A stretch of DNA of 35,667 bases from Chloroflexota bacterium. GTDB lineage: Bacteria; Chloroflexota; Dehalococcoidia; Lucifugimonadales; HRBIN23. The notes below the pieces were generated by a model that searched no databases, was not told the origin of the DNA, and saw only the letters and a list, made by a program, of their open reading frames with translations. Position numbers and translations under genes: made by a program. The stretch lies in the NCBI GenBank assembly GCA_016210325.1, contig JACQUK010000050.1:1-35667 (forward strand), read 5' to 3'. Positions 15,006-34,741 of this stretch are shown piece after piece. Numbering within the stretch: the first letter of the stretch is position 1; each line of letters starts with the position of its first letter.

Positions 15006-16274
15006 CTACAGTGGCTGGACGCCAGTCGTAGCCTCCTGGGCGTCCACCAGGCCGTACCCGTACAGGTTGTCGCGCCCCGCTGCGCCCAGGTCGTCGGCAC
15101 TACCCTGAAGGGCGGCCCTGACCTCAGCAGCGCTGTACTGGCCGTCTCCGTTCAGGTCATACTGCGGCAGCACCGGTGCAGCCAGCACCAGGGCTGCGGA
15201 CCCAGCCACATGCGGCGACGCCATGGAGGTGCCACTGATGGTGCTGTACACGGTCCCCTTCCAGGTGGAGAGGATGCTGACGCCGGGGGCAGCCAGCTCC
15301 ACGGCCGGCCCGGTGCTGGACCACGAGGGCCGGGTGTTGCTGCTGTTGGTGGCCGCCACGGCGATGACAGAAGCGTACTTGGCGGGGTAAATGACGGTGT
15401 CGCCGCTGCCGTCGGCAGTGCCGGAGTTGCCTGCCGCCGCCACCACCACGATGCCGGCGGCGTAGGCTGCGTTGACCGCCTGCTCCAGAGAGCCGGTGGG
15501 GCAGTTGCAGCCCAGGCTCATGTTGATGACCTGCATGTTGTTGTTGATGGACCACCAGATGCCGTCTACCACATTGCTGAGGGAGCCTGAGCCGTTCCTG
15601 TCCAACACCTTGACGGCATACAGGCTGGCTTGCGACGCAACGCCAATGACGCCAATGTCGTTGTCTGCTGCGGCAACGGTGCCCGCCACATGGGAGCCGT
15701 GGCCGTTGTCGTCGTCCCACTTGCTGGGGTCAACCCTGCCTCTGATCGCAACAAAGTTCGTGCCCCCCTTGATGTTGGGAGCAAGGTCCGGGTGGCTCTT
15801 GCTGATGCCCGTGTCAATGATAGCGACCTTCACCCCGGTCCCCTTGCTGGTGGACCAGGCCAGGTCGGCATCAATCTGGTTGACGCCCCAGGGCAGGACC
15901 TCCGCCGGTTGAGAGATCGGACCTGGCTTCTTGGGCCCCAGGGCAGCCGCTTCTCCCGGCAGGAGCTGGACCGCCACGTCTCGCTCTACTCTGGCCACAC
16001 CGCGGGCCTGGCCCAGGGCTGGGATGGCCTCCTCTGGCAACAGAACCACGAAGGCTGTGAATGGCGTGTTCTGCAACTGCTGCTGCACCACCGCGCCGCG
16101 GGCCAGCAAGGTGCCCTCGGCTGCTACGTTGGCCACACCGTCCTGGAAGGCCACCAGGACACGCACTGGCCCGCCCAGGGCTGGCCTGCCCGGGCCTGCC
16201 GTGGTCAGGAAAACCAGGATGCCTACTATGGCTATAAGGAGTGCTTGCCCGGCTCGCTTTGCTTCGTGACGCAT
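15006..16274 (-). CDS. Secreted subtilisin-like serine protease (S8)
   Basis: 422 aa. A signal peptide (ALLIAIVGILVFLTTAGPGRPALG) is followed by an inhibitor-I9-like propeptide (about 35-100: VRVLVAFQDG, FTAFVVLLPEEAI, VARVERDVAV). The S8 domain has the triad Asp in VAIIDTGISKSHPDL, His in NGHGSHVAGT and Ser in GTSMASPHVAG, plus the oxyanion Asn in AAAGNSGT. After the catalytic Ser there is a canonical EF-hand-like loop DLNGDGQYSAAE, which would bind Ca2+. It should act outside the cell in protein degradation. The start has GGGGAAGTGAGCT upstream. A strong terminator follows the gene. Confidence 0.9.
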   Translation of the reverse strand: MRHEAKRAGQALLIAIVGILVFLTTAGPGRPALGGPVRVLVAFQDGVANVAAEGTLLARGAVVQQQLQNTPFTAFVVLLPEEAIPALGQARGVARVERDVAVQLLPGEAAALGPKKPGPISQPAEVLPWGVNQIDADLAWSTSKGTGVKVAIIDTGISKSHPDLAPNIKGGTNFVAIRGRVDPSKWDDDNGHGSHVAGTVAAADNDIGVIGVASQASLYAVKVLDRNGSGSLSNVVDGIWWSINNNMQVINMSLGCNCPTGSLEQAVNAAYAAGIVVVAAAGNSGTADGSGDTVIYPAKYASVIAVAATNSSNTRPSWSSTGPAVELAAPGVSILSTWKGTVYSTISGTSMASPHVAGSAALVLAAPVLPQYDLNGDGQYSAAEVRAALQGSADDLGAAGRDNLYGYGLVDAQEATTGVQPL

Positions 16275-16486: not shown

Positions 16487-17560
16487 TCAGCGCTCCCACG
16501 GACTCAGCCCGGCTCCCGGCGGCAAGGAGCTGCCGTTGACGAAGCACAGCGGCAGGTGGGCCGGGTTCAGTCGGACCTGGACCCGGAGGCCCACGGGGTA
16601 GTCCACGGTGTGGGGCTGGAGGCAGTGCACCACCAGGCCGGAATCCAGGGCTACCTGGTACAGGTAGAAGGCACCCTGGAACACACGGCCGACGATCTGG
16701 CCCTGTCCTTCCTCGGCGGGGCGGAACAGCAGGTCGTCCGGGCGCACCATGACCTCCACGGTATCGCCCGGCCCGACTGCCGAGAGGGGGGGAAGAGGTC
16801 CCACTTCGGTGAGCAGGGCCCCATCTGAAGGGTGCGCGGGCAGGAAGTCTGCCATGCCCATGATGCGGGCCACGAAAGGCGTCTGTGGCGCGTGGAAGGC
16901 CCGCTCCGGGGTGTCCACCTGCTCCAGCCTCCCCTGGTTCATCACCGCAATCATGTCCCCCATGAACAGGGCTTCTTCCTGGTCGTGGGTTACGAAAATG
17001 ACCGTGACCTCGCTGGCCTTCAGAATCCTCTTGATGTCCTCCCTCACCTGGGCGCGGAAGCGGGCGTCCAGGTTGGAGAAGGGCTCGTCCAGCAGCAAGA
17101 CCTTCGGGTCAGGGGCCAGGGCCCGGGCCAGGGCCACCCGCTGTTGTTGGCCTCCTGAGAGCTCGTGGGGCAGACGCCCCTCCATGCCAGTAAGGCCCAC
17201 CAGGGCCAGCACGTCCCGCACGCGGTCGCTCCGCCCCCTGGGCAGGCCGAAAGCCACGTTCTCTCGTACGGTCAGGTGCGGGAACAGGGCGTAGTCCTGG
17301 AACACCATGCCCACGCGGCGCTTCTCAGGGGGCACAAAGGCGCCAGGCCCCACCACCAACTGGCCACCCACCTCAACCGCGCCAGAGTCAGGGGCCTCAA
17401 ACCCGGCGATGAGCCGCAAGACGGTAGTCTTGCCGCACCCGCTGGGGCCCAGCAACACCAGGACCCGCCCATGCTCCAGATCCAGGTCCAGCCGGTCCAC
17501 GGCCACCACGGGGCCAAAGGCCTTGCCCAGGCCGCGACAGCGTACCACGACTCCACTCAC
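16487..17560 (-). CDS. fbpC: Ferric iron ABC transporter ATP-binding protein
   Basis: 357 aa. The Walker A is LLGPSGCGKTTVLRLIAGFE, the Q-loop MVFQDYALFPHL, the ABC signature LSGGQQQRVALARAL, the Walker B LLLDEPFSNLDA, and the H-loop FVTHDQEEALFM. The C-terminus holds a TOBE-like domain (VEVMVRPDDLLFRPA). This is the FbpC/CysA/PotA type; iron specificity is inferred from the operon. Start is GTG at 17560, overlapping the permease stop (GTGA), so the two are coupled. The 723-aa ORF in the track is a fusion of this gene with a shadow of the permease and is not real. Confidence 0.88.
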   Translation of the reverse strand: MSGVVVRCRGLGKAFGPVVAVDRLDLDLEHGRVLVLLGPSGCGKTTVLRLIAGFEAPDSGAVEVGGQLVVGPGAFVPPEKRRVGMVFQDYALFPHLTVRENVAFGLPRGRSDRVRDVLALVGLTGMEGRLPHELSGGQQQRVALARALAPDPKVLLLDEPFSNLDARFRAQVREDIKRILKASEVTVIFVTHDQEEALFMGDMIAVMNQGRLEQVDTPERAFHAPQTPFVARIMGMADFLPAHPSDGALLTEVGPLPPLSAVGPGDTVEVMVRPDDLLFRPAEEGQGQIVGRVFQGAFYLYQVALDSGLVVHCLQPHTVDYPVGLRVQVRLNPAHLPLCFVNGSSLPPGAGLSPWER

Positions 17561-19191
17561 CGTTGTCGCTCTCCCTCTCCCAGCATTAGCAGAGCGGTGG
17601 GGACAGCAGCCACCAGGAGCAGCAGCAGCGCAGGCGCCGCCGCCCGTGCAAAGAAGGCTGCCTCGGCGGCTGACCAGATGGAGGTGGCCAGGGTCTTGAA
17701 CCCGATGGGGCTTAGTAACAGCGTGGCCGGCAGCTCTTTCATGGTGGTCAGGAACACCAGGGCAGCGCCGGCCAGAATCCCCGGGCGCACCAGCGGGACC
17801 ACCACGGTGGCCAGCACCCTGGTCGGCGAGTGCCCGAGGGAGCGAGCGGCCTCCTCCAGGCTTGGGTTGACCTGGAGCAGCGATGCCCGTGCTGCGCCCA
17901 CGGCCTGGGGCAGGAAACGCACGACGTAGGCGAGCACGAGGAGCCCCAGAGTCTGGTACAGGAACGGGGCGAAGTTGGCCCCGAAGAATACCAGCGCCAG
18001 GGCGATAACGATGCCCGGCAGGGCAAAGCCCACGTAGGTGGCCCGCTCCACCAGGGCGCTGACGCGGCCGGGGTAGCGGACCAGCAGGACGGTCACTGGT
18101 AGCGCCGCTGCCACCGTGGCCAGCGCCGCCAGGGCCGACACGTAGAGGGAGTTGGCCGCCGCCTGCCACACCAGCCGGAGGGGCTCCCCCGCCGCCAGGC
18201 CACGTGCCAGCCAGTAGGCGAGGACAGCCACGGGCATAAGAAGGGCGGCGCTTACCAGCAGTGCGCAAAACCCCAGGGCGGGCCAGCGCCAGTGCCCCAG
18301 GGCTACCGTCCGCGGCGGACGGAGGACTCCCACGGTGCTGCGGTGGTAGCGGGCCTTCCCCCGGGTCCGGGCCTCCAGCACCAGGAGGGCGGCGGCCAGG
18401 GCCACCAGCACCAGAGAGAAGACGGCGGCCAGCGTCCGGTCGAAAGAGGACTGGTACTGGAGGTAGATAACCCGGGTGAAGGAGTCGAAGCGCAGCAGGG
18501 ACACGGCGCCAAAGTCGCTCAGGGTGTAGAGGGCCACCAGCAGCGCGCCGGCCACGATGGCGGGCCGCAGGTGAGGCAGCACCACCCGCCGGAAGGTGTG
18601 CCAGGGGCCCTGTCCCAGGTTGCGGGATGCCTCCTCCAGGGCCGGGTCCAGGCCCCACAGCGCCGCCCGGACACTGAGAAGCACGTAAGGGTAGGTGAGC
18701 AGGGTCAACACCAGTGCAGCGCCAAAGAAGCCGTAGATCTCCGGCAGCCGCTCCACCCCAAAAGGACGCTCCAGAAGCTGCTGAAGCATCCCGCGTGGGC
18801 CCAGGGCGGCCACCGCTGCCAGGCCCCCGACGAAGCTGGGGATGCCCAATGGGAGCACCGTAGCCACCGCCCAGAGCCGGCGCCCAGGCAGGTCGCTACG
18901 CACGGTCAGCCATGCCACCGGCACCGCAATGGTCACGGCGCCGAAGCTCACCGTGGCGGCCAGCAGCAGGGTACGGCCCAGGACCTCCAGGGTGCGTGGC
19001 TGCCACAGGAGTTCCAGCGCCTCGCCGCCGGCGGATACGGTCCGCACCATCAGGTAGGCCAACGGCAACACCATGGCCGCTGCCACCAGGATGGCGGGCG
19101 CCAGCACCGCCCAAGGCGGCCTGGGCACCCGCAATCCCCGCCGCTGCGTTGGGACCACCCCCTGTGCGGCGGTCCGTTCAATGATTGCCAC
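17557..19191 (-). CDS. fbpB: Ferric iron ABC transporter permease, two-domain
   Basis: 544 aa with two BPD_transp_1 units in one chain, as in FbpB/SfuB. The two EAA loops are EEASRNLGQGPWHTFRRVVLPHLRPAI in the first half and EEAARSLGHSPTRVLATVVVPLVRPGI in the second. About 12 hydrophobic helices. It moves Fe(III) given by the binding protein, energised by the ATPase. Start is a GTG; AGGAGG lies about 12 bases upstream, rather far. A gap of 133 bases separates it from the FTR1 fusion upstream, with no clear promoter or terminator seen. It probably belongs to the same transcript. Confidence 0.88.
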   Translation of the reverse strand: MAIIERTAAQGVVPTQRRGLRVPRPPWAVLAPAILVAAAMVLPLAYLMVRTVSAGGEALELLWQPRTLEVLGRTLLLAATVSFGAVTIAVPVAWLTVRSDLPGRRLWAVATVLPLGIPSFVGGLAAVAALGPRGMLQQLLERPFGVERLPEIYGFFGAALVLTLLTYPYVLLSVRAALWGLDPALEEASRNLGQGPWHTFRRVVLPHLRPAIVAGALLVALYTLSDFGAVSLLRFDSFTRVIYLQYQSSFDRTLAAVFSLVLVALAAALLVLEARTRGKARYHRSTVGVLRPPRTVALGHWRWPALGFCALLVSAALLMPVAVLAYWLARGLAAGEPLRLVWQAAANSLYVSALAALATVAAALPVTVLLVRYPGRVSALVERATYVGFALPGIVIALALVFFGANFAPFLYQTLGLLVLAYVVRFLPQAVGAARASLLQVNPSLEEAARSLGHSPTRVLATVVVPLVRPGILAGAALVFLTTMKELPATLLLSPIGFKTLATSIWSAAEAAFFARAAAPALLLLLVAAVPTALLMLGEGERQR

Positions 19192-19324: not shown

Positions 19325-21445
19325 CTACGTCAGGTCAATCACCGTGCCCGAGGCGTACCACTGGAGCCAGATGAACAGGATGGTGACCAGGGTCAGGCCC
19401 AGGGGCACCCCGCTGGCTATCGCTCGGAGCGGGCCCCGGCTCTGGTTGCGCAAGATAGAGACGCCCAGGATGACGCTCCAGATGAAGCCGATGGCCAACA
19501 AGACGGCGGCCGCGGGTTGGACAATGCCAAAGAACTCCAGGGCGTCGTCGCCAAACGCGATGACCGCCGCGCTGAACTCTACGGGCAGGAAGATGTAGCC
19601 AAACACCGTCAACGCTTTGCGGAAGGAGATACCCGCCAGCGGCGCGCTGACGGCGCAGATGGCCACGTAGGCTATGGTGGTAAGCGCTATCATGCCGAAG
19701 AACAGCAGAGGCCAGGGGAGCCCCGCCAGCGCCACGGAGCGGTGCCCTGTAGCCATGTACATGCCCAGCAAGCTGGCAACAAAGAGGGACTCCCAGAGGT
19801 CCGGGGCGTAGGGCTTCAGCAGCTCGGCCCCGGGGAAACGCCAACCCAGCTTGAGGGAGGCTCTCTCCGGCGGACAGTTGGTGGCGCAGGCCCAGCACTT
19901 GAGGCAGTAGCGGTTGGACTCCAGCCGAGAGGGGTTGAGATAGGCCGGACAGCGGCCAGCCAGGGCAGTCCCTCTCAGACAGGGCTTGTCATGGCAGGAG
20001 GCGCAGACCGCCAGGTCAGCTCGAAGGGCCAGGGGGCTGAGGCGGGTTATCCGGGCCAGCCAGCCTCCCACTGGGCAGATGTAACGGCACCAGGTGCCCC
20101 GGCGGAAAAGAAAGCCCACGGCGACGGCCAGAGCCAAGATGACCAGGAACATGATGGCCCCGTAGCGAGCAACGGTCTGGACCGGCCACCACTTGACGAA
20201 GAAGGTGATGAGGATAAAGGCGACGGGAAGGAGCCAGCCGATGCGCATGTACGGCTGGATGGGCGAGCCCTTCCGGGTGAGCCTCTCCACCGGGACCCTG
20301 GCCCAGTCAGTGACCAGGCGCAGCGGGCAGAGGTTGCCGCACCAGAGTCGCCCCAGGAGCACCGTCCCCAGCGAGAGCAGGGGTAGCCAGGCAATCCACA
20401 TGACGAAGTTGAACAGGTTGTTCTCGTTCTCTTCACCCAGGAAGGGGCCCCATCGTAGCATTCCCTGATTGTTGAAGGGGCCGACATCTATTCCAAAGAG
20501 GGCCACAGCCAGCAGAAGCACCAGCGTAAGGCCCATGAGGGCTGGCACCAGGGTTGTGAGGCGGGGCCAACGCAGGACACGGTACAGGATGTGCTGGTAG
20601 CCCGACCCAATGGGCGAGAACGGCTCCTCATACCTTCCCTCCCTGGGCCTGCCTCCCAGGTCCACGTATAGCGCCACCACCAGGGCCACGTACCCTAGCC
20701 AGAAGATGACCTGGAGCAGAGACGGCGTTGCGGTGTAGCCCACCAGGACCCCCAGCACGGCACCCACACCCACGGTCTCTGACAACAGGTGGGAGGTGTC
20801 CCAGACCGCTATGGTGCCGGGGAAGATGCCTGCCGCCTGGAAGGCCAGGGTGGCCTTTCCCACAAGGCCAGCGGCGAACACCAGCAAGATGATGGTGGTG
20901 ACCCTGAAGAAAACGCGGAGGTCCAGGTAGCGGCTGCCCCCCTTGTAGACCACGTACCCCGCCAGGGCGGCAATACCGAACCCTGTAGCCGCCCCAGTAA
21001 TCACCCCCGGCCCACCGCTGCTGCTGGCGATAGCGGATAGGTACAGGACCGTCTCAGCCCCCTCCCGGAACACGGCGAGAAAGGCCAGAGTGGTAATCGC
21101 CAGGGTGGAACCTTTCCCCAGGGCGGCCCTGGCCTCTCCCTGTAGCGACTTGGCCATGTTGCGGCCCTGCTTACCCATCCACCAGAGGACATAGGTGAGG
21201 ACCCCAGCGGCAGCCCACATGACCACACCCTCGAAGACCTCCTCTGGCCGTCCCGCAAGGCCTCCGATGGTGAGGAACAGGGCCGTTCCCAGCAGCCCAC
21301 TGGCGGCCACCGCCAGCCCAACGCCAAGCCACACGCTGGGGAAATAGTGGCGGTTCTTGGTCTGGGCCAGGTAGGCCAGCAGGATGCCAATCACCAGACT
21401 GGCTTCCAGAGTCTCCCGCGCCGTGACCAGCAACGAAGCGCCCAT
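19325..21445 (-). CDS. FTR1 iron permease fused to a 4Fe-4S polyferredoxin (FtrC-FtrD-like)
   Basis: 706 aa, a fusion. Residues 1-250 are an FTR1-type permease with two R-E-x-x-E iron motifs (RETLE near residue 10 and REGAE near 127) and about seven helices. Residues 330-600 are a NosR/CcoG/FtrD-like membrane ferredoxin: WCGNLCP, WCRYICP, then cysteines in CASCHDKPC and CLKCWACATNCP, enough for two [4Fe-4S] clusters. About six more helices surround them. In FtrABCD systems of other bacteria, FtrC (FTR1) and FtrD (polyferredoxin) are separate proteins. Fusion suggests that electrons are moved to or from iron during transport. The start is one base after the stop of the binding-protein gene (TAGCATG), so they are coupled. 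Length is far above a typical FTR1 protein. Confidence 0.88.
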   Translation of the reverse strand: MGASLLVTARETLEASLVIGILLAYLAQTKNRHYFPSVWLGVGLAVAASGLLGTALFLTIGGLAGRPEEVFEGVVMWAAAGVLTYVLWWMGKQGRNMAKSLQGEARAALGKGSTLAITTLAFLAVFREGAETVLYLSAIASSSGGPGVITGAATGFGIAALAGYVVYKGGSRYLDLRVFFRVTTIILLVFAAGLVGKATLAFQAAGIFPGTIAVWDTSHLLSETVGVGAVLGVLVGYTATPSLLQVIFWLGYVALVVALYVDLGGRPREGRYEEPFSPIGSGYQHILYRVLRWPRLTTLVPALMGLTLVLLLAVALFGIDVGPFNNQGMLRWGPFLGEENENNLFNFVMWIAWLPLLSLGTVLLGRLWCGNLCPLRLVTDWARVPVERLTRKGSPIQPYMRIGWLLPVAFILITFFVKWWPVQTVARYGAIMFLVILALAVAVGFLFRRGTWCRYICPVGGWLARITRLSPLALRADLAVCASCHDKPCLRGTALAGRCPAYLNPSRLESNRYCLKCWACATNCPPERASLKLGWRFPGAELLKPYAPDLWESLFVASLLGMYMATGHRSVALAGLPWPLLFFGMIALTTIAYVAICAVSAPLAGISFRKALTVFGYIFLPVEFSAAVIAFGDDALEFFGIVQPAAAVLLAIGFIWSVILGVSILRNQSRGPLRAIASGVPLGLTLVTILFIWLQWYASGTVIDLT

Positions 21446-21446
21446 G

Positions 21447-22517
21447 CTAGCTCACCACGCCAACATCCCGGAGTAGCCGCAGCGTCCCTTGCAGGTCATC
21501 CAGGTTGCTCAGGTCAATGTTTGGTGTTTTGATCTGGGAGAGCGAGGGCAGGTCTGGGTGGGTGGGGACGCCCGCCACGAGCGGGTACTCGAAGGCGTCG
21601 TCCGGGGTATCCCCCGCAAAGTACTTCTGGGCTTCATTGGAGAGCAGGTACTCCAGAAAACGGAGGGCCTCTTGCCGATGCTTCGAGGTACCCAGGACAC
21701 CCACCCCAGCCACGTTGATCATGGCGCCGGCATCGCCGGCCCTGGGCGAGTAGTTGCGGACGGGGAACGAGAGGCCTTGCTCCTTGAGGAAGGTGTACAG
21801 GTAGTAGTGGTTGACAAAGCCCACATCCACCTCGCCGGTAGCCACGGCCCGTACAATGGCGCTGTTGTTGCCATAGGTCTTGGCACCGTTGGCCTTGACG
21901 CCCTCCAGCCATTGGCGTGCCTTGGCATCACCCTCAGCAATGCGCAGGGCAGTGACGAAGGCCTGGAACGAGCCATTGGTGGGCGCCCACCCGATGCGCC
22001 CCTTCCATTGGGGGTCAGTGAAGCCGCTGATGGAGTCCGGCAGGTCTGCCTCAGTCACATTCTTCGTGTTGTACGCAACCACACGCGCGCGCCCCGTTAC
22101 CCCCACCCATTCACCCTTTGGGGAACGGAAGCGCCCTTCCACCTTGTTGAGGACTGAGTCCGGAAGCTTCGCCAGCTTCCCGCCCTTGGAAAGCGCGCCC
22201 AGGGCACCGGCGTCCTGGGCCCAGTAGACGTCCGCCGGGCTGTTCTGCCCCTCTTCCAGGATGGTGGCGGCCAGCTCGGCGGTGCCGCCGTAGCGGACCT
22301 GCACGTCAATGCCGGTGGTCTTACGGAACTGCTCGATGATGGGGCCCACCAGCTCCTCGCTGCGGCCGGAGTAGACGGTGAGGGTGGCGGGCTCGCCTCG
22401 ACAGGCCGCAAGCCCCAGTGCCAACACGAGCAGGAGGGGAAGGGCTACCAGAAGCCGGGAGCGGGACAGCCCCTTGAGAAGCGGCAGATAGGAGAGCCGG
22501 CGTGGCTGGAGCCGCAC
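21447..22517 (-). CDS. fbpA: Fe(III) ABC transporter substrate-binding lipoprotein
   Basis: About 356 aa. A lipoprotein signal (ALPLLLVLALGLAAC) anchors it. The mature part starts LTVYSGRSEELVGPIIEQF, the classic FbpA/FutA start, then GIDVQVRYGG and DVYWAQDAGAL. The iron-binding double tyrosine is present in FVNHYYLYTF. It should carry Fe(III) outside the membrane to the permease. GTG at 22517 was chosen because AAGGAGG lies eight bases upstream; the ORF-track GTG at 22526 overlaps that site. It heads the operon after an operator-like palindrome. Confidence 0.88.
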   Translation of the reverse strand: MRLQPRRLSYLPLLKGLSRSRLLVALPLLLVLALGLAACRGEPATLTVYSGRSEELVGPIIEQFRKTTGIDVQVRYGGTAELAATILEEGQNSPADVYWAQDAGALGALSKGGKLAKLPDSVLNKVEGRFRSPKGEWVGVTGRARVVAYNTKNVTEADLPDSISGFTDPQWKGRIGWAPTNGSFQAFVTALRIAEGDAKARQWLEGVKANGAKTYGNNSAIVRAVATGEVDVGFVNHYYLYTFLKEQGLSFPVRNYSPRAGDAGAMINVAGVGVLGTSKHRQEALRFLEYLLSNEAQKYFAGDTPDDAFEYPLVAGVPTHPDLPSLSQIKTPNIDLSNLDDLQGTLRLLRDVGVVS

Positions 22518-22789: not shown

Positions 22790-24040
22790 CTAGGCGTTCC
22801 ACTCCCAGGCGGAGCGTGGCGTGGGTTGGACCCCGTGGGCGAAGCGGGCAGGCAAGAAGGGGCCCAGGGGCATCGAGGGGGTACGGCCTTGCACCAACTC
22901 GGCGGCCACGCGGCCCAGCAGGGGACCCAGCAAGATGCCCCGCCGTCCGCCGCCGGTGGCCACCACCAGCCCCTCGATGCCCGGCACGGGCCCCAGGACC
23001 GGTAGCCCGTCGGCGCTCAGGGGGCGCAGACACGCGGTCTGGCGGACGAGCTGGGCCTCAGCCAGGGCCGGGGCCATCTGCACCAAGTCGTGGAGAATGG
23101 CATTGCGCGCTGCTACCGTCGGCTGCTCATCGTACCCGACCTCCTCCTCCGTCGAGCCGGCCCACACCAGGCCGTCCTCCTTGGTGGCGGCATAGCTGGC
23201 GTGCCAGCTCACGTAGCAGGTCAGCGGTTTCCCGGGCAGCCTCAGGCGGAGGATCTGCCCCTTCAGCGGGCCGACGGGGATAGGGGACCCCAGCCATCCG
23301 TTGGCCTCCTCGCTCCAGGGACCCAGGGCCAGCACCACCCGGGGCGCGGATAGTGTGCCATGGCGCAGCGTGACGCCAGTGACCCGGCCACCCTGCCGCT
23401 CCAGGCCGGCCACCTCACCGTGCCGGACCTGCACCCCTCGCTTCTCCGCTGCCTGGGCCACGGCCAGCACCAGGCGGTAGGGCTCTACGACAGCCGTCTC
23501 CGGACTGACCATCGCCCCTAGCAGGGCAGGGGACAGCAGAGGCTCCCGCGCTGTAGCCTCCTGAGGCTCCAGCCAGTCCACGGCAAACCCAAGCTGGCGG
23601 TAGTGGCTGATGATGCCGCAGAGGTCATCCCGGTCCTGGGGGCTAAGGGCTATCCACAGCCCGTCCCTCTGCTGGAAGCTGGTAGCCACCCCGGTCTCGT
23701 TTTTGAGCTCCTCGGCCAGGGTGGCATGGAGGCGGAACGCCTCCCGCGTCCACGCCAGGTACTCGGGGGGCTTGTTGTGTCCGGGGAAGGGGGTAAGCCC
23801 GCCCAGGGCAAAGCCGGAGGCATGGCTCCCCAGGGAGTCCCGCTCCACCAGGGTCACCCGGGCCCCCTGGCGTGCCAGGAAGTACGCAGCCGCGCACCCA
23901 ACGATGCCACCACCCACCACGATGACATCAGCCGTTCCTTCGGTAGCCAGCGCTGCCCTCCTTGTAGGCCGCGGTGCGTTCACGGCCGTGGCTGGCCGCG
24001 GCCTCGACATCTCGGCCTCATTGGTCTGCCTAGCCTTCAA
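22790..24040 (-). CDS. FAD-dependent glycine/D-amino-acid oxidase (ThiO/DadA-like)
   Basis: 416 aa. The FAD-binding start is ADVIVVGGGIVGCAAAYFLARQGARVTLVERD (GGGIVG, Asp/Glu end of strand 2), at about residues 37-68. The C-terminal FAD loop is LVVATGGGRRGILLGPLLGR; in ThiO-type oxidases this is usually 'ATGHxRNGILLxP', so a His-to-Gly change is present. The phrases LRPLSADGLPVLGPVPGIEGL and CYVSWHASYAATKEDGLVWAG also match glycine oxidase/sarcosine oxidase-like DAO proteins. It would oxidise a small amine to an imine with H2O2. No thiamine genes are near. The 35 residues before the FAD fold are not conserved; the true start may be Met at 24010 or later. Confidence 0.82.
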   Translation of the reverse strand: MKARQTNEAEMSRPRPATAVNAPRPTRRAALATEGTADVIVVGGGIVGCAAAYFLARQGARVTLVERDSLGSHASGFALGGLTPFPGHNKPPEYLAWTREAFRLHATLAEELKNETGVATSFQQRDGLWIALSPQDRDDLCGIISHYRQLGFAVDWLEPQEATAREPLLSPALLGAMVSPETAVVEPYRLVLAVAQAAEKRGVQVRHGEVAGLERQGGRVTGVTLRHGTLSAPRVVLALGPWSEEANGWLGSPIPVGPLKGQILRLRLPGKPLTCYVSWHASYAATKEDGLVWAGSTEEEVGYDEQPTVAARNAILHDLVQMAPALAEAQLVRQTACLRPLSADGLPVLGPVPGIEGLVVATGGGRRGILLGPLLGRVAAELVQGRTPSMPLGPFLPARFAHGVQPTPRSAWEWNA

Positions 24041-24203
24041 CCTATTCTATCCGAAACTGCCGTGGGCGGCCGCCTCTGCTGGGGACAGTTGTGCCACAAT
24101 GCGAGAAGCGCTAACCTAGGCAACGGCCCAGCCGTTCTCTAGGTGGGGTGGAGCATTTGCCTGGGTCCGGCCCTCAACGAGGGCAGCCCAGATGGGAGAC
24201 GCC

Positions 24204-25118
24204 ATGACGCTCAAGAAAGGCATTCTGCTAGGGTTACCCCTGTCCCTGCTGCTCCTGGCACTGCTAGCAACCGCCTGCGGTGGAGGAGGCAGGGAGTCCG
24301 TTGGTTCTCCAGGCGCTCCGGGACCCACTCGCCCGCCGGCGTCCACACCAACGCCTGCGCCCTTCGCTTTCGGGAAGGATGCCGCCCTTAGCTTCTCGGA
24401 CAGCCGGTCCGCTGCCCAGCCGCAGGCCCGCATGGTGGTGCGAACGGTGAACATGATGGCCATCATCCAGGATGTGCCTCGGGCCGTGGAGGACATCTCC
24501 GCCATGGTGGGCCAGATGGGGGGATTCGTCGTCTCCACCTCCCTCCGGGGGCAGGAGGAGCAGGACACCATCGCCAGCATCAGCTTCCGCGTGCCGTCGG
24601 AGAAGGCGGAGGAGGCGCTGGCCCGGGTGCGGGGGATGGCCTCCCGCGTGCCAGCCGAGCAGAACAGCGGCCAGGACGTCACCGAGGAGTATGTGGACCT
24701 CAAGGCACGCCTGGACAACCTGGAGGCCAGCGAGAAGCAGCTCCGGGGGGTCATGGACAGGGCCCAGACCGTGGAGGACATTCTGAAGGTGCAGGCCCAG
24801 CTCACGCAGGTGCGTGGCGACATCGAAAGCTTCAAGGCCCGCACCCTCTACCTGGAGCGCACCTCGGCCACCGTGCTGATCAACGTGGAGCTGCTGCCCT
24901 TAGCCAGCACCAAGCCCCTGGTAAGCCCTGGCTGGAGTGCCAGGGAGACGGCCAAGAGCGCGGTGCGGACGCTATCGGGTGGTGGGCAGAACCTGGCGGA
25001 CTTTGCCATCCGCGCCGCTGTCCTGAGCCCCCTGTGGCTGCCCGAGGTGCTGGTGCTGGCCGCCCTGCTGGCCTGGCTGGTGCGTCGGCTGGCCGCGGCC
25101 AGGGCGCACAAGGCGTAG
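24204..25118 (+). CDS. DUF4349 lipoprotein
   Basis: About 304 aa. A lipoprotein signal (LSLLLLALLATAC) is followed by a Gly/Ser/Pro-rich linker to about residue 60. The DUF4349 domain (about 75-235) shows RMVVRTVNMMAIIQDV, EDISAMVGQMGGFVVST, SFRVPSEKAEEAL and a coiled-coil KARLDNLEASEKQLRGVMDRA. A C-terminal helix LSPLWLPEVLVLAALLAWLV probably crosses the membrane, as usual in the family. The role is not known; some members are called lipoproteins of the cell surface. Start ATG at 24204 was chosen over 24192 because GGGAG is well spaced from it. It diverges from the DAO gene. Confidence 0.82.
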   Translation: MTLKKGILLGLPLSLLLLALLATACGGGGRESVGSPGAPGPTRPPASTPTPAPFAFGKDAALSFSDSRSAAQPQARMVVRTVNMMAIIQDVPRAVEDISAMVGQMGGFVVSTSLRGQEEQDTIASISFRVPSEKAEEALARVRGMASRVPAEQNSGQDVTEEYVDLKARLDNLEASEKQLRGVMDRAQTVEDILKVQAQLTQVRGDIESFKARTLYLERTSATVLINVELLPLASTKPLVSPGWSARETAKSAVRTLSGGGQNLADFAIRAAVLSPLWLPEVLVLAALLAWLVRRLAAARAHKA

Positions 25119-32593: not shown

Positions 32594-34726
32594 CTAGCCC
32601 AACACCGTCTGGAAGGTGGAGCCGAGAGGGCCTTTGGTGACCTCGATGCGTGTGGGGAAGACCTCCTTGAGCTCCTCGATGTGGGTGATGACCACGATCA
32701 GGTCGAAGTCGTTCTGGATGGCCTGGACGGCCTCCACCAAGCGCCCGCGCCCCGCGGCATCCTGGGTACCGAAGCCCTCGTCAACAAACAGCGTGCGCAG
32801 GGGTGCGCCAGCGCGGGCGGCCAGCAGGCCGGCCAGCGCCACCCGCAGGGCGAAGTTGACGCGGAAGGCCTCCCCGCCACTGAACATCTCGTAGCTCCGA
32901 GTCCCCAGCTCGTCGGCCACCTTGATGTCAAGGGTCTCTACCACCTTGCCCTGGCGCGTCTGCCGCTGGGTGCTGAGGGCCACCGTCATACGGCCGTCGC
33001 TGAGGCGGTGGAGCAGCTCGTTGGCCCGCTGCTCCAACTCCGGCAACGCCGCGTCCAGGAGCATAGCCTGGACCCCCCTTCGGCCAAAGGCCTCGGCCAG
33101 CAGGTCGTGGGTGGCTTGCTCCCTCAGGACGGCTTCTCGTCTGGCTGCCTGCTGCCCGCGCTGTGTCTCCATCTCCGCCAGTTGCGCCAGCCTTTGTCCG
33201 GCCGCTTCCTGGTGGGCCAGCAACCTTCGCTGCCTCTCCTCCAGTCCTCGATAGACCACTTCGGCTTCGCCTGTCTGGCGGCGTAGCTGCGGAAGCTCGA
33301 CCAGCTCACGGGCCAGGGTCTCCCTGCGGCCCTGGCTTTCGGCCACCTCTGCACGGTGCCGTGCAGCCAGGGCACGGAGGCCGTCCATCTCCTCCTGTTC
33401 ATGGGGCAGACGCTTCTGGGCCTCCTGGACCCGCGCCCGCCGGGCCTCGGTCTCTGCCCGCTGCCGCCTCAGGTCGGCCTCCAGCGCCCGGAGGGCACCA
33501 GCGGCCCTGGTCTCCTGGGCACGGAGGGAGGCCAGCGCCGCGGCGGTCTCGTCCAGTTGACGGCGTGTCTCCTTACCCTGGGACTCGATCTCCTGCTCCA
33601 GATGCTGCCGCCCTTCCTGCCCCAGAAGGGTGCCACAGAGGGGGCAGCGGGGGTCCTGGGACACCTTCAGCATCTCATACCGCTGGAGGAGGTCTTTGCG
33701 CTCCTTTTCCAGACGCTTGCCCTCCGCCTCGCGATGGCCTATTCCGGCGTGCAGTGCCTGGAGCGCCCCTCGTTCTTCCTCTACCTGGTGCTCAAGCCGT
33801 TCGATGGCGCTTTCCGACGCTTCTACCTCTGCCCCCCTGCGGGCCTGCCCTGTGAGCTCGGCGATGCGGGCCTCCTTGGCCGCTATCTGGCGCTCCAGGC
33901 CCTGGAGTCCCTGGAGGCGGTCGCCAATGGCCTTGTCAAGCTGCTGGAGGTCAGCCTCACGCCGTTCCAGAGTGCCCAGGCGCACCCGCAGGTCCAGGAT
34001 GCCCTGGTGGGCAGCCTCCACCTGCGGTGCCAGGCTGACCAGCTCCTGGCGGGCAGCGTCCAGGGCCTGCTGGTGCTCACTCCGGTGCGAGAGGGCCTCG
34101 TCGGCGCGGGCCAGCTCCGCCTCCAGCAGCCTGGCCTCCTGCTCCCCCTGGCGCGCCTGCTGGCGTGCCCGCTCCGCCAGTCGCTCGTAAAGCCCCAGGT
34201 CCAGGATGCGGGCCAGGACCTCCTTACGCTCGGCAGGCTCGGCCTTGGTGAACTCGTCGGCGCGGCCCTGAAGAAGGAAGGCGCTGTTGATAAAGGTCTT
34301 GTAGTCCATGCCCAGCAGCCGTCCGACCTTCTCCTCCGTCTCTTGGACTGAGTTCCCCGCGATGGAGCGGTAGCTAATGCCGGTAGAGACCTGGAGGTCA
34401 AGGATGGTGGCGCCAGAGCGCCCCCCGCTGCGTCGGGTGTGGCGTCGAAGGGCCAGGTAGCGGTTCCCGCCCGCCTGGAACTCAAGCTCTACGCTCATCT
34501 CCACCTGGCCTTGGTGGACCAGCTCCTCCAGTGGGTGCTGGGCCGTGCCGAAGCGGATGCCGCGGGCGCAGCCCCACAAGGCCCAGGTCATGGCGTCCAG
34601 CAGGGCCGACTTGCCGTGGCCATTGTCGCCGCAGAGACAGACCACACCAAGGCCCTGGAGGTCCAGCTCCGGGACGTTGTCGCGGTAGCAGAGAAAGTTC
34701 TTGATGCGCAGTTTCAGCGGGACCAC
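32594..34726 (-). CDS. SbcC/Rad50-like ATPase
   Basis: About 710 aa, shorter than typical SbcC (roughly 1000) or Rad50. It starts VPLKLRIKNFLCYRDN with Walker A GDNGHGKSALLDAMTWALWG. The coiled coil is long and rich in Glu/Arg/Ala. A zinc hook CPLCG lies near residue 360. The ABC signature is MFSGGEAFRVNFALRVAL and the Walker B RTLFVDEGFGTQD. It should work with an SbcD/Mre11 nuclease in DNA end processing. I chose GTG at 34726 because M-V-P-L-K-L-R-I-K-N-F agrees with the family start. No sbcD gene lies next to it. Confidence 0.85.
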   Translation of the reverse strand: MVPLKLRIKNFLCYRDNVPELDLQGLGVVCLCGDNGHGKSALLDAMTWALWGCARGIRFGTAQHPLEELVHQGQVEMSVELEFQAGGNRYLALRRHTRRSGGRSGATILDLQVSTGISYRSIAGNSVQETEEKVGRLLGMDYKTFINSAFLLQGRADEFTKAEPAERKEVLARILDLGLYERLAERARQQARQGEQEARLLEAELARADEALSHRSEHQQALDAARQELVSLAPQVEAAHQGILDLRVRLGTLERREADLQQLDKAIGDRLQGLQGLERQIAAKEARIAELTGQARRGAEVEASESAIERLEHQVEEERGALQALHAGIGHREAEGKRLEKERKDLLQRYEMLKVSQDPRCPLCGTLLGQEGRQHLEQEIESQGKETRRQLDETAAALASLRAQETRAAGALRALEADLRRQRAETEARRARVQEAQKRLPHEQEEMDGLRALAARHRAEVAESQGRRETLARELVELPQLRRQTGEAEVVYRGLEERQRRLLAHQEAAGQRLAQLAEMETQRGQQAARREAVLREQATHDLLAEAFGRRGVQAMLLDAALPELEQRANELLHRLSDGRMTVALSTQRQTRQGKVVETLDIKVADELGTRSYEMFSGGEAFRVNFALRVALAGLLAARAGAPLRTLFVDEGFGTQDAAGRGRLVEAVQAIQNDFDLIVVITHIEELKEVFPTRIEVTKGPLGSTFQTVLG

Positions 34727-34741
34727 GGCATGGCCTTCCAC

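Follow-up and report, generated by a model that had tools for sequence, protein, structure and literature searches.

An FTR1 permease fused to a membrane polyferredoxin in a ferric-iron operon of a Chloroflexota bacterium

One gene in the window, that is, the whole stretch of 35,667 nucleotides analyzed (contig JACQUK010000050.1 of assembly GCA_016210325.1), encodes both an FTR1 iron permease and a polyferredoxin. Why these two modules are carried by a single chain, and where each of them came from, is the question that this locus raises. A natural fusion says that FTR1 and polyferredoxin work together, possibly on the same iron. It also offers a one-gene construct for probing electron flow between clusters and transported iron, and would show how an FTR1 permease can serve bacteria that have neither FeoB nor a dedicated ferroxidase. 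The preferred reading, with a probability of about 50%, is that the protein is an iron permease that carries an electron-transfer arm in the same chain.

The gene (19325..21445, minus strand) is a single open frame of 706 codons that starts with ATG and ends with TAG. Residues 1-265 (20651..21445, minus strand) form the FTR1 permease domain, and residues ~296-706 (19328..20560, minus strand) form a NapH/FtrD-like membrane polyferredoxin domain, which was assigned from PF12801, the NCBIfam NapH model, cysteine comparison and hydropathy. The Pfam FTR1 profile PF03239 matches residues 4-259 (E = 2e-37; 129 bits vs a cut-off of 25.3; profile positions 4-270 of 284), and the Fer4_5 profile PF12801 matches two stretches from residue 348 onwards (E = 4e-10; 39.9 bits vs a cut-off of 22). 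An earlier note, made from the letters, had described an FTR1 with two R-E-x-x-E motifs and a polyferredoxin in one 706-residue chain; Pfam, NCBIfam and the motifs agree with it, and both profiles that it named score above their Pfam cut-offs. The NCBIfam model for EfeU (NF041756) matches residues 6-261 (E = 2e-59) with 201.5 bits, below its equivalog cut-off of 255. In the polyferredoxin half, the NapH/MauN model matches residues 354-526 (E = 3e-13) below its cut-off, the NapH equivalog cut-offs are not reached (49.9 bits vs 213; 30 vs 234), and the CcoG match is weak (E = 3e-4) and far below its cut-off.

Direct reading places the FTR1 motifs RETLE at residues 10-14 and REGAE at residues 127-131, and both positions are invariant across 72 aligned rows of fusions and other FTR1s. 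The polyferredoxin half contains two CX3CP motifs, CGNLCP (369-374) and CRYICP (453-458), additional hydrophobic helices, and two ferredoxin-type cysteine sets, C481-x2-C484-x4-C489-x9-C499-P and C514-x2-C517-x2-C520-x3-C524-P. These cysteines would suffice for two [4Fe-4S] clusters. A full alignment of four intact fusions shows no change in either R-E-x-x-E motif or in any of the 12 motif cysteines. The hydropathy of the chain is compatible with seven helices, then four more ahead of the ferredoxin part and about five that follow it. No solved structure resembling either half by sequence was found, and an AlphaFold model of the whole chain on four rows (mean pLDDT 35) was set aside.

The same two-domain protein is encoded in five other Dehalococcoidia MAGs, with 54-77% identity to the window fusion: G851/L002 (77%), G870/L003 (75%, with a run of N in the tail of L003), G382 (65%), G037 (56%, from another order) and G038 (54%, L071:5713-7829). 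The G038 copy is broken by a frameshift into two overlapping frames, which reflects either a sequencing error or real decay. Between the window gene and L002 and L003, dN is ~0.14-0.20 and dS is ~0.7-1.1 in both halves, and synonymous change exceeds non-synonymous change ~4-8-fold in both halves (vs L002, L003 and L069). Purifying selection thus acts on both halves and is stronger on the polyferredoxin half, which has 72% identity to L069 vs 56% for the FTR1 half. A frameshift or an assembly join in the window gene, which the earlier note had raised as a possible undoing of the fusion, was ruled out by the recurrence of the same junction in independent assemblies; together with the selection on both halves, this indicates a real, selected gene.

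The fusion is rare in the order of the window and its distribution is patchy, because it occurs in 4 of the order's 250 genomes searched, because a draw of 393 genomes from the class and one of 400 from the phylum found only the known holders, and because two genomes of the window's own family are without it. The genome search was centered on Chloroflexota, and the contig search used six exact peptides, which limits its reach to close relatives. A scan of viral contigs found no relatives of the fusion. Among plasmid records no match covered 80% of the query, and only separate FtrC and FtrD or EfeU were found. A literature search, with most subscription journals outside it, found no paper describing an FTR1-polyferredoxin fusion.

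The gene order in the window is fbpA, fusion, fbpB and fbpC, all on the minus strand, so that genes of an FbpABC-type ferric ABC importer, a partner absent from the earlier note, flank the fusion. The upstream gene (21447..22517) encodes an FbpA-like ferric-iron-binding lipoprotein with a LAAC lipobox and the tyrosine pair motif NHYYLY; a GTG start at 22517 is preferred, with GGAGG upstream. Its TAG stop is followed by one base and then the ATG of the fusion, a gap of 1 nt. The protein matched 30 solved structures (best match 7w3w, E = 5e-91), nearly all of them named iron-binding and FbpA and HitA among them, and it is accordingly placed, by similarity, in the ferric-binding family of substrate-binding proteins. 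An FbpB-like ABC permease with two BPD_transp_1 domains (17557..19191, profile match) follows 133 nt after the fusion, and an FbpC-like ABC ATPase with a TOBE_2 domain (16487..17557, start approximate) was identified by Pfam and NCBIfam. As judged from these neighbors, the fusion gene sits in an iron-uptake operon. An inverted-repeat scan for DtxR boxes upstream gave nothing consistent, and a scan for promoters and terminators gave results at chance level.

Other genes of the window have no obvious link to iron; they encode a subtilase (S8) (15006-16274, minus strand), a FAD-dependent DAO oxidoreductase (22790-24040, minus strand), a DUF4349 protein (24192-25118, plus strand) and a SbcC/RecF-like ATPase (32594-34741, minus strand). 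Elsewhere in the same genome (G000, contig C44, L073:6628-10498), genes for a redoxin, an unfused Fer4_5 polyferredoxin that carries the HxxHN motif, a PCYCGC protein and a multihaem cytochrome stand in a row that looks like an extracytoplasmic electron-transfer cluster.

Operons with fbpA-fbpB-fbpC and no fusion were found in G853, G852 and G293, and also in G382, away from its own fusion. In three of these four the gap between fbpA and fbpB is 2-7 nt; the operons of G853 and G852 have a DtxR-type repressor next to them. Because the nearest fbp operons of the order have this arrangement, an existing ferric operon in the lineage of the window probably acquired the fusion gene, at a site between fbpA and fbpB. 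The other loci differ. In G037 a standalone FTR1 and the fusion both lie behind fbpABC, and in L002 the fusion, together with a standalone FTR1, adjoins a divergent iron-dependent repressor. In L003/L072 genes for a PhnD-like binding protein, an ATPase and a permease precede the fusion, with a DtxR-type repressor nearby, and in G382 the fusion stands alone. The repressors beside the fusion in L002 and L072 have DtxR and FeoA domains. DtxR-type repressors with a C-terminal FeoA domain occur near FTR1 or fbp genes at L072:8042-8584, L002:3041-3856 and L111:1251-2102, with FeoB absent. In three Dehalococcoidia genomes, PhnD-like substrate-binding proteins are encoded beside an FTR1 gene, whether standalone or part of a fusion (L014:374-1318, L016:1-370 and L072:6364-7353); they may bind an iron compound rather than phosphonate.

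Partner proteins of known iron systems were sought in the six fusion genomes, which are fragmented draft assemblies, five of them below 95% complete, so that gene absences are provisional. P19/FtrA (PF10634), FeoB and M75/EfeO were found in none of the six, each with a working control, and no P19/FtrA lies beside the fusion. The lack of FeoB was rejected as a mark of fusion genomes: FeoB was undetected in 246 of the 247 genomes of the order (found in one), and its lack is therefore a feature of the order. FbpA was found in 209 of the 247, and ferric ABC import seems to be the standard iron route of the order. Three of the six fusion genomes, namely G851 (97% complete), G870 (92%) and G038 (87%), gave no FbpA match; the idea that the fusion is a fixed part of FbpABC was therefore rejected, and the Fbp link is not obligatory. 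The earlier note had also suggested that the chain perhaps works without a periplasmic multicopper oxidase or cupredoxin. No cupredoxin is adjacent to the fusion in the loci read, and P19/FtrA and EfeO are missing as described, but cupredoxin-domain proteins are encoded elsewhere in all six genomes. The idea of a chain with no dedicated ferroxidase partner is therefore partly supported; the lack of a cupredoxin holds for the locus, and less surely for the cell, where a distant cupredoxin may act.

A second architecture that joins FTR1 to an Fe-S domain was found in six Chloroflexota genomes (G776, G365, G047, G045, G024 and G018), in which FTR1 carries a C-terminal PF10080 domain. PF10080 is named 'FtrD-like' in Pfam and is taken here to be the former DUF2318; it is present in P0001 and gave no match in the window fusion. 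The genes are located at L113:6330-7601 (G776), L011:126-1397, L116:208-1476, L122:602-1870, L118:900-1991 and L120:651-1769. As in the window fusion, an FTR1 permease and an Fe-S domain share one chain, and the G776 copy lies directly behind fbpABC; in contrast, the added domain is short (~100 aa), belongs to an unrelated Pfam family and contains no CX3CP polyferredoxin. The FTR1 half of these proteins lies far from that of the window fusion in the tree. FTR1 has thus become joined to an Fe-S module within a ferric operon at least twice, with unrelated modules, which supports a redox role and makes the window protein less novel. Such fusions are present in the order and the class of the window, so that the joining of FTR1 to an Fe-S domain is not unique.

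Most simply, the clusters and the iron in FTR1 would exchange electrons, and it is probable that the two halves are redox-coupled, whatever the direction. Among the points counted for an electron-transfer arm are the retention of the 12 cysteines and of R-E-x-x-E, the selection on both halves and their joint inheritance, the iron context, the parallel fusion behind fbpABC in G776, and the lack of P19, FeoB and EfeO in the six genomes. In the FTR1/EfeU topology the N-terminus is outside and the C-terminus is inside after seven helices, and in NapH the CX3CP and cluster motifs are inside. By these topologies, both CX3CP motifs and both [4Fe-4S] sets of the fusion would face the cytoplasm, where FTR1 releases iron. 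In the least certain part of this reading, electrons from menaquinol or a cytoplasmic donor would pass through the clusters, which would reduce Fe(III) leaving the FTR1 path, and its release as Fe(II) would drive uptake without copper or oxygen. The Fe(III) would be delivered by the FbpA lipoprotein in the window and by other carriers elsewhere. Reduction at the exit is favored because the neighbor is a ferric carrier and because CcoG, a membrane polyferredoxin, is a cytoplasm-facing cupric reductase (PMC8267372). Counted against it are the ability of FbpABC to import Fe(III) by itself and the FtrABCD model, which runs the opposite way (PMC11966278): Fe(II) is oxidized outside and Fe(III) is then passed by FtrC. 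Reduction of Fe(III) at the inner face is plausible at somewhat less than even odds. More tentative is the complete scheme of a copper- and oxygen-independent importer, in which one polypeptide would pass Fe(III) and reduce it at the exit via its own [4Fe-4S] clusters, with the redox step pulling transport, and which would have been added to FbpABC and may have taken its place in some lineages.

The reverse direction is rather unlikely. Fe(II) would be oxidized outside, the polyferredoxin, in place of Fet3p or FtrB, would hand the electron inward to quinone or to an acceptor in the cytoplasm, and Fe(III) would pass through FTR1. The family members FtrC and Ftr1p are modeled as carriers of Fe(III) that depend on a ferroxidase, and Fe(II) is the only iron form used by FtrABCD (PMC11966278). 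The missing P19/FtrA and EfeO also fit this route, and a conserved stretch between helices 8 and 9, GPFxNxGMxxWGPFxxxENEN, is a candidate outer loop. However, all cysteine sets are expected to be cytoplasmic, which would leave a ferroxidase site at the outer face in need of a different cofactor. The neighboring FbpA carries ferric iron, and the cupredoxins encoded elsewhere could oxidize iron.

It is less probable still that the polyferredoxin senses, gates or serves a separate redox partner (e.g., in Fe-S assembly), with the fusion fixing stoichiometry. Co-assembly alone can explain the fusion of neighbors, and the faster evolution of the FTR1 half means that the halves are unequally constrained; yet the 12 motif cysteines and the two R-E-x-x-E motifs have all been retained, and the separate fusions of FTR1 with an unrelated Fe-S domain favor a direct redox role.

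The fusion also has to be placed by descent. A quick tree, some of whose branches are long, unites the FTR1 halves of the six fusions in a single clade (SH-aLRT 97) that is nested in a large group comprising EfeU and Chloroflexota FTR1s (SH-aLRT 94), apart from FtrC. The polyferredoxin halves are united in a clade of their own (100/100), on a long stem and outside FtrD, and a branch of 97/90, among long branches, parts FtrD and the fusion clade from all other polyferredoxins. Since each half forms one clade, the two domains were inherited together. The first motif, CGxxCP (a CX3CP), is common to the fusion and FtrD, both of which are without the HxxHN of most other polyferredoxins; two full ferredoxin cysteine sets are present in the fusion and most other polyferredoxins and absent from the five FtrDs compared. 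On this evidence the protein is a mosaic of a Chloroflexota FTR1 and a polyferredoxin whose relation to FtrD may be that of a distant sister at best. Descent as a true FtrC-FtrD fusion from an ftrABCD operon that had lost ftrA and ftrB is very improbable, since the overlap of the ftrC and ftrD genes in the order of the fused domains, the 97/90 split and the shared motif pattern are outweighed by the position of the FTR1 half, the two cysteine sets missing in FtrD and the length of the branches. The name 'FtrC-FtrD fusion' given in the earlier note thus fits the order of functions, as an analogy, and not the ancestry.

An H-E-x-x-E motif near the end of helix 6 is common in standalone FTR1s (H in 44/62, first E in 49/62 and second E in 53/62), whereas it is lost in the fusions (0/6); it is mostly absent from FtrC too. 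The topology of EfeU implies that this stretch faces outward. If it does, the fusions would have lost a likely entrance or docking site for iron, and the loss is perhaps linked to iron arriving differently.

Among known systems, EfeU of EfeUOB belongs to the same FTR1 family and is the nearest NCBIfam model to the FTR1 half; it has no fused domain, the fusion scores below its cut-off, and the fusion genomes are without EfeO. NapH, NosR and CcoG share the CX3CP pairs and the ferredoxin cysteines following membrane helices, but none is fused to a permease, and the fusion is far below the NapH and CcoG cut-offs. FbpABC/FutABC ferric ABC importers are the operon partner of the fusion in the window and in G037; they form a separate, ATP-driven system, and the fusion also occurs in genomes with no FbpA match. 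The P19 cluster of Campylobacter contains FTR1, P19, a DUF2318 membrane protein, ABC parts and thioredoxins (PMC6083913). In FtrABCD of Bordetella and Brucella, FtrC and FtrD are two proteins, accompanied by the P19-like FtrA and the cupredoxin FtrB; the available part of the published account gives roles to FtrA, FtrB and FtrC and none to FtrD. In agreement with the earlier note, ftrC and ftrD were read as separate genes, with a 4-nt overlap, in ftrABCD operons on plasmids of Azospirillum and Sinorhizobium. The ferredoxin cysteines of FtrD are fewer than those of the fusion, and the FTR1 half of the fusion is not of the FtrC clade. What the two systems share is an FTR1 permease followed, in the same order, by a CX3CP membrane polyferredoxin in an iron-uptake context.
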